NCBI RefSeq assembly: GCF_003586445.1
Contig: NZ_CP030028.1
Span: 510,501-574,500, forward strand
Length of the DNA: 64,000 nucleotides
Origin: Bacillus sp. Y1
Lineage (GTDB): Bacteria > Bacillota > Bacilli > Bacillales > Cytobacillaceae
Direction of reading: 5' to 3'
In this document: positions 12,637 to 56,848 of the stretch, in pieces
Layout: every line of letters begins with the position of its first letter
Numbering within the stretch: position 1 is the first letter of the stretch
The notes under the pieces: model-generated
Told to the model about the DNA's origin: nothing
Database searches by the model: none
The model's input: the letters and a program-made list of their open reading frames with translations, nothing else
Program-made: the position numbers and the translations under genes

Positions 12637-12730
12637 AGTAAAGCACCTCAAAACGGAACCCTTTATGTTTATCCCTGCAAGCTTTTATATTACACTAAAG
12701 ACAACACAATTAACGTTCATGAGGTGTAAT

Positions 12731-13699
12731 ATGGGAAATGATCTTCTTGCAACCTTGATGGAAATAACAGAAGAAGAACAGATGATTCTCGAGCAAAGTA
12801 GTGAAATAAAAAAGGACCTTTATACAAATCAAACGTCTTTTATTATTGAAAGCGAAAAGTTCTTGAATCAAAACGAGATGATTATGCTTAGAAAGCATAC
12901 ACGATTTATTGATTTTCCCAAGCATCGTCACAATTATATCGAAATTAATTATGTGTTTCATGGTGAGTTAAAACAGAAGGTTGGAACGGAGAATGTCCAC
13001 TTAAAGCAGGGCGAGCTTTTATTTTTGAATCAGCATATTGAACACGAAATTGAAGCTTGTGCAAAAGAGGATATTATCATTAATTTTATTATTCAGCCAA
13101 AATTCTTTGATTTCATTTTTTCCTATTTATCCTCAACCAATTTAATGAGTAACTTCATCATAAACAGTCTCTATAATCACACGCAGAATGGACAATACTT
13201 GTACTTTGCTGTTACACATGTGGAGGCCATTCAAGAGTTAATTAAGAAAATGATGGATGAAATTATGGTACCATCGTTATTTTCAGAGTCTACTTTGAAG
13301 CTTTATATGGGGCTTTTAATGATAGAGCTTTTAAAGAACACGGATAAATTAAAGCAAAATGAACTAAGCACGGAACATCACTATATCCTTGTCGAGACGA
13401 TGAAGTATATTGATGAGCACTATCAAAATGCTTCTCTTTATGAGTTGGCTGAGCAATTGAATCAGCCACACTACGCGGTCAGTAAGCAAATTAAGCAAGC
13501 GACGAAATATACTTTTAAGGAGCTTTTACAAGAAAAAAGACTTACGAAAGCAAAAGAGTTTCTAGAAAGAACCGAAATGCCCATTACAAAAATCATTGAT
13601 GAAGTTGGCTACGATAATATGAGCTACTTCTACCGGATATTTAAAAGCAAATACGGAAAAACTCCAAAGGAATATCGAGTGGAGCTGAAAGGCAGGTGA
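12731..13699 (+). CDS. AraC-family transcriptional regulator with cupin sensor domain
   Basis: 322 aa from ATG 12731, with GAGGTG just upstream; upstream in-frame ATGs at 12665 and 12719 lack sites. A cupin-like ligand domain (KHRHNYIEINYVFHGELKQK, about residues 58-77) precedes two C-terminal helix-turn-helix units (LYELAEQLNQPHYAVSKQIK and PITKIIDEVGYDNMSYFYRI). Sugar-responsive regulators often have this layout. It lies between the rhamnoside operon and rhaBA and could act on either, but no operator was identified. A 20-bp tandem array begins 70 bases after its stop. Confidence 0.9.
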   Translation: MGNDLLATLMEITEEEQMILEQSSEIKKDLYTNQTSFIIESEKFLNQNEMIMLRKHTRFIDFPKHRHNYIEINYVFHGELKQKVGTENVHLKQGELLFLNQHIEHEIEACAKEDIIINFIIQPKFFDFIFSYLSSTNLMSNFIINSLYNHTQNGQYLYFAVTHVEAIQELIKKMMDEIMVPSLFSESTLKLYMGLLMIELLKNTDKLKQNELSTEHHYILVETMKYIDEHYQNASLYELAEQLNQPHYAVSKQIKQATKYTFKELLQEKRLTKAKEFLERTEMPITKIIDEVGYDNMSYFYRIFKSKYGKTPKEYRVELKGR

Positions 13700-13770
13700 A
13701 CTTTGTGTTCAGCTGTTTTTTATTGGATTTTGGAGATTGAGGACAAACTTTTAGGCCATAAAAAGTCGAG

Positions 13771-14150
13771 ATCGCAAATAAACTTTAGGAATAGCAAATA
13801 AGGATGATGAATAGCAAATAAAAATTCAGGATCGCAAATAAATTTGTAGGATCGCAAATAAAAATTCAGGATCGCAAATAAATTTGTAGGATCGCAAATA
13901 AAAATTCAGGATCGCAAATAAATTTGTAGGATCGCAAATAAAAATTCAGAATCGCAAATAAATTTGTAGGATCGCAAATAAAAATTCAGGATCGCAAATA
14001 AATTTGTAGGATCGCAAATAAAAATTCAGGATCGCAAATAAATTTGTAGGATCGCAAATAAAAATTCAGGATCGCAAATAAATTTCTAGAATCGCAAATA
14101 AAATCTGGGAATCGCAAATATATCCTAGAAATAGCAAATAAACACCGGAA
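13771..14150 (+). repeat. 20-bp tandem repeat array, 19 units
   Basis: Nineteen units in strict 20-base register, each starting with ATCGCAAATA (ATAGCAAATA in units 2, 3 and 19). From 13811 to 14090 the second half alternates without exception between AAAATTCAGG-type and AATTTGTAGG-type, giving a 40-base super-repeat (14 units). Alternate units contain the inverted repeat CAAAT-AA-ATTTG. Units at both ends are degenerate. The 20-base period is not a multiple of three and stops occur in all frames, so it is not coding. No element of this type is known to me. An iteron-like protein-binding array is possible. Confidence 0.95.
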
Positions 14151-14217
14151 AAATAGCTAGAAGGGTAACCATATTATTCAAATTTGTTTTTCTAGTACTC
14201 TAGAGCAACAAAAAAGC

Positions 14218-14258
14218 ACTGACCGAATGGAATTTCGGCCAGTTTTTTATTTTTTTCA
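14218..14258 (+). terminator. Terminator-like hairpin after the tandem array
   Basis: ACTG-A-CCGAA pairs with TTCGG-C-CAGT (one mismatch) around 14218-14243, followed by T-rich sequence to 14258. No gene precedes it closely, so it would end transcripts running through the repeat array from the AraC gene. Confidence 0.7.
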
Positions 14259-14360
14259 TGAAAAATTGGCCTTTCTATTCAATTTAAGCTTATGCCTGTC
14301 GCCTCTGACCAAGCTGCCTAAGCTTTTCTCTGTCCAGCATGGCACGAAGGGATGAGCGAG

Positions 14361-14509
14361 CTTATGACATGAAAGTCGTGAAAAATAGAAGCATACGCGT
14401 CATAAGAAAAGGTTTTTGACGTGAGAGCTGGGCAAAACAGAGGCATACGCGTCATAAGAAAAAGTTTATGACGTGAGAGCTAGAAAAACATAAGCGTACA
14501 CGTCATAAG
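14361..14509 (+). repeat. Three 52-bp hairpin-forming tandem repeats
   Basis: Three units whose TGAC cores start at 14365, 14417 and 14469 (period exactly 52). Each opens with a TTATGACGTG-like arm and closes with the complementary arm CGCGTCATAA, so each unit can fold alone. The middles (AGAGCT, A-rich, GCATACG) are conserved between units 2 and 3. No coding potential. Confidence 0.8.
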
Positions 14510-14552
14510 ACTTTTTCGTGGAGTCCAGTCCATACGTCGCTAAACAGAAAAT

Positions 14553-14800
14553 TCCGCTTTTCCTCTGTCCAGCTCCGCCTCCTTGACCCTCGAGGTCATA
14601 AGTCGATCCCTTTTGGAAAGCAGGCTTTCCGTCAGGGCTCGCCTTATGCTTGTCGGGTCAGAACAGTCGGCTCCGCTTTTCTTTGTCCAGCTCCAGCAGC
14701 TAGGGGCTCGGGGTCATAAGCCAACTCGCTCCAGAAGGCAGGCCTTCCTGCGCGATTCGTCTTATGCCTGTCGCCCCTAAGCAAGCTGCCTCCGCTTTTC
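14553..14800 (+). repeat. Two 119-bp structured repeats plus a third partial copy
   Basis: The block TCCGCTTTTC recurs at 14553, 14672 and 14791 (period 119), mostly followed by TGTCCAGCTCC. Each complete unit holds outer arms CATAAG / CTTATG around an inner hairpin: GGAAAGC-AG-GCTTTCC in copy 1 and GAAGGC-AG-GCCTTC in copy 2. A related partial piece lies at 14287-14338. GC-rich compared with its surroundings. Similar GTCCAGCTCC-type intergenic repeats are, from memory, widespread in Bacillaceae. A 65-codon frame through it is a by-product. Confidence 0.8.
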
Positions 14801-14834
14801 TTGCAAATAAGGTCAATAAATTAAATAAATCCCG

Positions 14835-14887: not shown

Positions 14888-14905
14888 CCAAAAGGAGCGT
14901 TGAGG

Positions 14906-16327
14906 ATGAACAAGTACAGTATTGCTGTTGATATTGGTGCTTCAAGTGGAAGATTAATGTTAGGTCATAGAGAAAATGGACATTTACAGTTACGTGAATT
15001 ATATCGATTTGAAAATAAGATTGTGCAAAAAGGGAACTACTTTTGCTGGGAGCTTGATCGACTGTTTGATGAAATCAAAACAGGGTTAAAAAAGTGCCGT
15101 GAACTTGGTATCCAACCAGATAGCATCGGAATCGACACGTGGGCGGTAGATTTTGTCTTACTAGATGAAAATGACCAGCCGCTAACGGAGGCAGTATCCT
15201 ACCGTGATCCACGAACCGATGGCATGATGGAAGAGGTATTCGAGCTCATCTCCAAGGAACGCCTTTACCTTGAAACAGGGATCCAATTTCAAAAGTTCAA
15301 CACGATTTATCAGTTATATTCCTTGAAAAAGAACCATCCCGATATCTTAGCGAAAGCAAAATCCTTTTTAATGATACCGGATTATTTGAACTTTTTACTC
15401 ACAGGAAATAAATCAAATGAATATACAAATGCGACATCCACACAGCTAGTCAATGCTTTTACGAAAAAATGGGACTACGAACTGCTAGATATTTTAGGGA
15501 TTAATAAGGACATGTTCCATGAAATCCAGCTGCCAAAGACGATTCTAGGAAATTTGAAGGAAGAGCTAGTATCAGAACTTGGCTTTGATATGAACGTCAT
15601 TCTCCCTGCCACACATGATACCGGATCGGCGGTGATCTCTGTGCCTGAAGAGGAGAGTACCATTTATATTAGCTCAGGAACATGGTCGTTAATGGGGACG
15701 GAGAATCATTTCCCTATCTGTGTCACAAAAGCGCTAGATTACAATTTTACCAACGAAGGCGGTATCGACTATCGCTTCCGTTTCTTGAAAAATATTATGG
15801 GACTTTGGATGATTCAAGAGGTCAAGCGAAACTACGATCATGAGTACACGTTCGCTAAACTGGTAGAACTGGCGGAAGAGGCAGGAGACTTCCAATCAAT
15901 CGTAAACGTCAACGATGATCGATTCTTAAAGCCAGAAAATATGATTCAAGAAATTATGAACTATTGTATCGAAACGGGACAAAGGGTGCCTAGTAAACCA
16001 GGAGAAGTCGCAAAATGTGTGTATGACAGCTTAGCATCAAGCTACAAAGAAACCATCGGAGAAATTGAAAGCATTTTTGAAAAATCCTTCGACAAGATCA
16101 ATGTGATCGGTGGTGGCTGTCAAAATGAAATGCTGAATCAGCTTGTCGCGGACGTGACGAATAAAGAAGTGCTGGCTGGACCGATCGAAGCAACAGCCAT
16201 TGGTAATATCGTAGCTCAATTGATGGCATTAGGTGAATTTACGGATTTACAGGAAGTACGTTCTGTAATCAAACAATCGTTTGAAGTAAAAAAATACGAA
16301 CCTACTAAATCAGTAGCCAACTCATAA
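14906..16327 (+). CDS. rhaB: Rhamnulokinase
   Basis: 473 aa from ATG 14906 (AAAGGAG upstream; a TTG two codons earlier is less well placed). FGGY-family kinase: N-terminal phosphate loop VDIGASSGRLMLG (residues 7-19), central SSGTWSLMGTE (about 251-261), and C-terminal NVIGGGCQNEMLNQ (about 396-409). These match RhaB in detail, so it should phosphorylate L-rhamnulose to rhamnulose 1-phosphate with ATP. Same operon as rhaA, 18 bases apart. The aldolase gene (rhaD or rhaE) and mutarotase gene rhaM are not in this window, so the pathway must be completed elsewhere. Confidence 0.95.
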   Translation: MNKYSIAVDIGASSGRLMLGHRENGHLQLRELYRFENKIVQKGNYFCWELDRLFDEIKTGLKKCRELGIQPDSIGIDTWAVDFVLLDENDQPLTEAVSYRDPRTDGMMEEVFELISKERLYLETGIQFQKFNTIYQLYSLKKNHPDILAKAKSFLMIPDYLNFLLTGNKSNEYTNATSTQLVNAFTKKWDYELLDILGINKDMFHEIQLPKTILGNLKEELVSELGFDMNVILPATHDTGSAVISVPEEESTIYISSGTWSLMGTENHFPICVTKALDYNFTNEGGIDYRFRFLKNIMGLWMIQEVKRNYDHEYTFAKLVELAEEAGDFQSIVNVNDDRFLKPENMIQEIMNYCIETGQRVPSKPGEVAKCVYDSLASSYKETIGEIESIFEKSFDKINVIGGGCQNEMLNQLVADVTNKEVLAGPIEATAIGNIVAQLMALGEFTDLQEVRSVIKQSFEVKKYEPTKSVANS

Positions 16328-56715: not shown

Positions 56716-56803
56716 AAACTGTAAAAGGCAAACTTTTCCGAAAGGGAAGGACGCAAAGCCGTGAGCCTAATCGCTTGTCATGCGAATGGTCGTCAGGTTG
56801 CCA
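56716..56803 (+). promoter_or_regulatory. c-di-GMP-I (GEMM) riboswitch
   Basis: The conserved landmarks appear in order: GGCAAAC (56727), a hairpin TTTTCC-GAAA-GGGAAG with GNRA loop, GGACGCAAAGCC (56749-56760), GAGCCTAA, a second hairpin TCGCTTGTCATGCGA, and GGTCGTCAGGTTGCC (56788-56802). These are the P1/P2/P3 and tetraloop-receptor parts of the class I c-di-GMP aptamer. TATAAT at 56703-56708 is the likely -10. After the aptamer, GCCAGGTCTCA can pair with TGTGAGCCTCGGCTGGC just before the ribosome binding site GGGGG. No T-run follows, so control is probably at translation. Confidence 0.93.
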
Positions 56804-56848
56804 GGTCTCATTTTGTGAGCCTCGGCTGGCAGAATGGGGGAACTTGGA

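Follow-up and report, generated by a model that had tools for sequence, protein, structure and literature searches.

Plasmid-origin iterons lie next to an initiator gene or an origin and consist of non-palindromic repeats in direct orientation, spaced by about two turns of the helix; a Rep-type protein binds them. The REP/BIME elements of enterobacteria consist of palindromic hairpin units at gene ends, in arrays of alternating unit types, and in CRISPR arrays, identical repeats are separated by mostly unique spacers of ~26-72 bp. Constant-length satellites are a frequent feature of Bacillus-type bacteria. In a survey of 176 Bacillus genomes, 781 tandem repeats had a length of 20-21 nt and 1886 a length of 51-53 nt (Subirana and Messeguer 2021; PMC8161180). 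These repeats keep a constant length while their sequence varies, are species-specific and contain a short characteristic sequence; a few repeats of 40-41 nt are related to those of 20-21 nt. Their function is given as unknown in that paper, which discusses nucleoid stabilisation and small RNAs. In addition, PMC8161180 and PMC8625621 report transcription of the 52-nt satellites of B. coagulans.

The DNA analysed here (the window) is a stretch of 64,000 nucleotides, G000:C1:510501-574500, from a genome of 5.03 Mb in a single contig, and the host genus is probably Robertmurraya. The original prediction had placed a tandem array between an AraC gene and rhaBA, and the array was indeed located there, with an AraC-family gene before it and an FGGY-kinase gene and then rhaA after it. 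The features of this region are as follows:

12665..13699, plus strand: gene of an AraC-family regulator, on the upstream side of the array (ORF; Pfam HTH_18, HTH_AraC and AraC_binding)
13683..13723, plus strand: intrinsic terminator predicted for the araC-type gene, ahead of the array (hairpin and T-run, -10.9 kcal/mol; coordinates converted from locus L054)
13771..14150, plus strand: array of 19 units in 20-bp steps, core ATCGCAAATA(AA) followed by variable positions 13-20 (pattern scan)
13811..14110, plus strand: alternating-type region of 15 units, with strict two-sequence alternation in the 13 units at 13811-14070 (unit listing; Tandem Repeats Finder, period 40)
14151..14250, plus strand: tail with a predicted intrinsic terminator at its end, hairpin at 14219-14242; tails like it come after other arrays that are not its orthologs (flank BLAST, alignment and terminator prediction)
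14362..14513, plus strand: 52-nt repeat in three degenerate copies, in the same gap as the array (Tandem Repeats Finder, period 52, 2.9 copies; repeat finding)
14900..16327, plus strand: FGGY-family kinase gene in the rhaB position, downstream of the array (ORF, Pfam)

All 18 steps of the array were exactly 20 bp, with 19 units within 380 bp (13771-14150), which confirmed the predicted 19-unit 20-bp array. The prediction had also given every unit one start; this held for the exact core ATCGCAAATA in 16 of the 19 units, but the units at 13791, 13811 and 14131 carried the variant core ATAGCAAATA. Error-free alternation had been described over 14 units. In the unit listing, the spacers AAAATTCAGG and AATTTGTAGG took turns across 13 units (13811-14070), one of them reading AAAATTCAGA, and the alternation of types carried on through the 14th (AATTTCTAGA) and 15th (AAATCTGGGA) units, but with spacers that differ from those two. 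This two-type alternation is beyond chance, as the spacer identity at lag 2 minus that at lag 1 was 2.68 of 10, a value reached by 1 of 20,000 unit permutations. Tandem Repeats Finder gave the array a score of 561 at period 40 and 367 at period 20. Across the window, the core with at most one mismatch matched 29 times against 6.5 expected, and 29 matches were reached in 0 of 100 shuffles. The edges of the array were degenerate and its centre was homogeneous in the unit listing, and no listed ORF of at least 80 aa covered it; the claims of a homogenised centre with degenerate edges and of non-coding DNA were therefore borne out.

The array is a member of the published 20-21-bp constant-length satellite class of Bacillus-type genomes, and the earlier statement that nothing explains it was thus too strong. 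The published description (PMC8161180) asks for a repeat length of 20-21 nt that is the same in at least 60% of the repeats, for four or more repeats in a stretch of 800 nt, for several arrays per genome with a common short, lineage-specific sequence and for no coding of amino-acid repeats. The window array has 18 of 18 steps of identical length, and 186 of 188 steps were exactly 20 bp across 17 arrays of this genome, where steps of 19, 21 and 39-41 bp were also allowed. With 19 units in 380 bp and no listed ORF of at least 80 aa over it, it belongs to a set of at least 17 arrays whose three-unit pattern was found in 3 of 193 family genomes, all three of the same genus. It thus shares with the 20-21-nt Bacillus repeats of PMC8161180 the 20-bp step, the non-coding location, several arrays per genome and a lineage-specific short sequence. 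Beyond the main text of that paper, we add to the class a core/spacer split measured between arrays, a usual duplicating block of 40-42 bp with two cores (40 bp in this genus), a location at gene 3' ends and inheritance at orthologous sites.

The three degenerate 52-nt copies in the same gap resemble the 52-nt Bacillus repeats (PMC8161180), which are likewise of constant length and variable sequence. They differ from the window array in their 52-bp step and in having a core pair in inverted orientation, TTATGACG ... CGTCATAA, instead of direct cores. The genome has the inverted pair at four further places (239 kb, 1.234 Mb, 2.07 Mb and 2.18 Mb), and both published constant-length classes thus occur in it. 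At 14289-14801 of the window, between the 52-nt repeats and rhaB, the stretches CTTATGCCTGTCGCC..GCTTTTC and TTTTCTCTGTCCAGC occur in three copies each, and similar stretches lie at the same site in two other genomes of the genus (G002 and G003).

In the whole genome, two-unit core patterns gave 86 forward and 32 reverse matches, and the reversed control gave 0. At least 17 arrays on the core ATCGCAAATA were found between 321 kb and 4.88 Mb, comprising 205 units under a loose chain rule, and a decayed array of 2-3 units at 506 kb came in addition to these. The two-unit match occurred in 5 of 5 genus genomes (this one included) against 0 of 56 other genomes, and a 26-unit array was found on one contig named Bacillus sp. 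AFS041924. These results establish a genus-level array family that shares a single directional core, ATCGCAAATAAA, and keeps a strict 20-bp register. The largest array of the genome, L055 at 599 kb, has 36 units and is spanned by an open antisense frame of 230 aa, probably due to composition; open antisense frames also cross some other arrays, the window array being outside the listed ORFs.

Core and spacer were compared in 43 deduplicated arrays with 422 units (379 once the last unit of each array was dropped; 232 distinct). Unit positions 1-12 carried 1.2-2.0 bits of information and positions 13-20 carried 0.1-1.0 bits. With same-site and orthologous pairs left out, the agreement between arrays was 0.471 at positions 13-20 and 0.902 at positions 1-12, the latter somewhat inflated because units were detected through core similarity (at most 2 mismatches; skipped units were allowed but rare). 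Composition alone predicts an agreement of 0.476 at positions 13-20, and these positions retain base composition only. An A/T alternation at position 13 was rejected as a rule for all arrays, the neighbour agreement of 0.47 being equal to that given by composition (0.47). The top signals of mutual information between unit positions lay mostly between close positions within the unit and formed no clear stem pattern.

Our main reading, in which we have about even confidence, is that the arrays are DNA sites for a putative protein in fixed helical register. Such a protein would read the core as DNA and fill the array side by side, taking one site for roughly every two turns of the helix, probably in blocks of two sites. 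The core and its spacing would then be under selection while the spacer drifts. Candidate purposes of the putative protein are chromosome organisation and the titration of a regulator. The earlier comparison with arrayed operators on a shared helix face fits the exact 20-bp register, but the binding protein in it is putative. The chief rival is a neutral satellite, in which homology between cores drives slippage, blocks expand and collapse in tolerant gaps behind gene ends, and the likeness of the cores reflects common descent; we consider this possible, though not the probable case. The degenerate array edges are in keeping with it. However, different arrays agree at 0.90 in positions 1-12 but show no trace of common ancestry in positions 13-20, and the 20-bp register is almost never lost (186 of 188 steps). 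A core that is kept array after array, next to a spacer that is not, is something that a purely neutral satellite does not by itself predict.

The duplicating unit was traced through the spacers, whose identity within arrays was 0.529, 0.704, 0.509, 0.690, 0.519 and 0.715 at lags 1 to 6, respectively. Neighbouring spacers (0.529) were no more alike than spacers of different arrays (0.526), whereas the next-but-one spacers reached 0.704. Identical spacers made up 6 of 336 cases at lag 1 and 83 of 293 at lag 2. Identity at lag 2 was above that at lag 1 in 29 of 37 genus arrays but not in the other 8; with one array per site group (27 groups, 3 of them too short), this was so in 18 of 24. Among the 36 arrays with at least 6 units, a count that leaves out seven shorter arrays, the dominant lag was 2 in 24, 4 in 6, 1 in 6 and 3 in none. 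In a slippage model without block preference, lag 2 was dominant in no more than 105 of 300 runs, compared with these 24 of 36 arrays, or 16 of 24 when each site is represented by a single array; the model is crude and gives support, not proof, and its shortfall at lag 2 also speaks against a neutral satellite. The usual mode of duplication is thus by a unit of 40 bp with two cores.

The araC-type gene was present in 4 of 4 other genus genomes with 95-97% identity; in G003 (L093), its frame is interrupted by one in-frame TAA. An array stood at the araC-rhaB site in 4 of 5 genus species, with 19 units behind the araC-type gene in the window genome (G000), 11 in G002, 6 in G003 and about two in G004. 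In G001, no array was found in the 1.5 kb examined behind the orthologous araC-type gene, indicating that the array site can be lost. The original prediction had taken absence from sister strains, together with no bound protein and no effect on neighbours, as a mark of a neutral satellite; the 1.5 kb of G001 agree with this in part, but the core is retained across arrays while the spacer is not. Because the unit number at one site ranges from 19 down to about two, with none seen in G001, a neutral satellite is still a serious rival to the reading as protein sites. The dimer AAAATTCAGG/AATTCTTAGA occurred once in the G003 array and AAAATTCAGG/AATTTGTAGG about 6.5 times in G000, so the window array, judged by these sequences, appears to have expanded relative to its G003 ortholog. 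Together with the 40-bp rule seen in other arrays, this difference supports the proposed growth by 40-base duplication. For 14 orthologous array pairs, with orthology assigned by us from flanking genes and flank BLAST, the best-match spacer identity was 0.66-0.89, and 13 of the 14 exceeded the mean of non-orthologous pairs (0.67, sd 0.07, 581 pairs), which indicates that arrays are mostly inherited in place. The araC-rhaB array occupies an inherited site, and its unit number changes mostly in 40-bp two-core blocks.

Next, we examined the genomic context of the arrays, using longest-ORF picks as gene calls. In the window genome, 8 of the 17 arrays lay between co-directional genes and had their core in the direction of these genes, 5 lay between convergent genes and 4 were antisense to both neighbours, and 0 of 17 lay between two gene starts. 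A position between divergent genes was seen for one array of relatives (L072; 17 scorable) and for one in other genera (L130; 19 scorable). Arrays sit beside gene 3' ends. A predicted terminator stood between the gene end and the array in 13 of the 17, and 4 of these 13 were antisense to both flanking genes; at the window array, the T-run of the predicted araC-type gene terminator is 55 bases ahead. No terminator was predicted before L050, L056, L059 and L066, the hairpin of L050 being present but missed by the rule used. A Pfam scan of the 3'-adjacent genes of 11 arrays gave unrelated families for 10 and none for 1, which led us to reject a regulon; unrelated neighbours are also what a neutral satellite would allow. 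The first ORF of the contig reads as DnaA, and the origin was accordingly set at position 0. The core was on the leading strand in 13 of 15 arrays of this genome away from the assumed terminus. A leading-strand rule is not claimed, since the G024 arrays, among the matches listed, were in both orientations.

Flank BLAST linked the downstream tails of the non-orthologous arrays L051, L052, L054 and L069/L080, and the L053 tail was added to this group by alignment only. The tails end in a terminator. A dispersed element that copies an array and its tail to new sites behind genes would account for these common tails and for the similar unit order of L051 and L054; tails and some unit order common to arrays at different sites also fit a neutral satellite. 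A covariance model was built from nine tails, which it recovers by construction, and was searched with 150 of the first-look candidates scored per genome. Outside the training set, it matched beside arrays in G004 (E 1.1e-5) and G002 (E 0.006) and partially at 506 kb in G000 (E 0.02), three matches that favour copying, and weakly beside the 4.88-Mb array (E 0.12). One more match was at L105. However, matches at L098 and L108 had no adjoining array, and part of the tail is thus a terminator that also occurs by itself. In addition, the tail was present in a minority of arrays by BLAST, no upstream flank was shared between non-orthologous arrays in flank BLAST, and orthologous arrays were inherited in place. 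We therefore regard a copying element as improbable.

The terminators after tailed arrays could also belong to a transcribed repeat RNA or a 3' UTR. In G002 and G004, the araC hairpin ahead of the array lacks a T-run, and the array could be transcribed there, as reported for the B. coagulans satellites. In some arrays, the alternating spacers seemed, by eye, to form convincing RNA hairpins. Across 40 arrays, however, neighbouring spacers did not pair more than swapped-spacer controls on either strand (p 0.24-0.91), which ruled the hairpins out. A scan of the window with Rfam 15 at gathering score gave no match over the array, which sets aside a known structured RNA family, and the predicted terminators ahead of 13 of 17 arrays point away from transcription. 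A role at the RNA level is accordingly very unlikely. The single Rfam 15 match in the window was a c-di-GMP-I riboswitch at 56717-56805 (71.6 bits).

The arrays of this family resemble plasmid iterons in that their repeats are direct and non-palindromic and follow each other at about two turns of the helix. Unlike iterons, they occur behind unrelated genes at no fewer than 17 sites of the chromosome, and replication iterons were rejected because no initiator gene was found by the 11 arrays scanned (10 other Pfam families, 1 none). They share the gene-end location and the alternating unit types with REP/BIME elements, but not hairpin units, given the lack of excess pairing between neighbouring spacers in 40 arrays. 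A CRISPR array was ruled out, as the spacers are 8-10 bp long and 83 of 293 are found again at lag 2.

Finally, we looked for similar arrays in other genera. Four-fold repeats anchored on TCGC were found in 84 of 193 family genomes at 21 bp and 72 at 20 bp, and those of the control word TCCG in 95 and 35 of 193, respectively. The control is similarly widespread, indicating that TCGC is not special, and a family-wide TCGC anchor was rejected. In 20 arrays of other genera, with other cores and 20- and 21-bp steps, lag 2 exceeded lag 1 in 15, in seven genera; the 20 arrays were hand-picked among the matches listed, with some alternation already visible beforehand. The five without it were L119, L126, L127, L131 and L132, of which L127 and L131 have just one or two variable columns. 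It is conceivable, but rather doubtful, that the 20-21-bp satellites across the family are one system, with 40-42-bp two-core blocks and a putative fast-evolving DNA-binding protein, in which the core changes by genus. If true, bacteria would have a parallel to satellite DNA that co-evolves with the protein bound to it, and the two-type alternation would be the signature of a two-site block. A kept core with a drifting spacer, together with the two-core block in several genera, makes satellite function testable. One genome of genus g10 (G036) holds many 20-bp arrays on the core TCCGCTCGTAAAT, with 182 four-fold matches.
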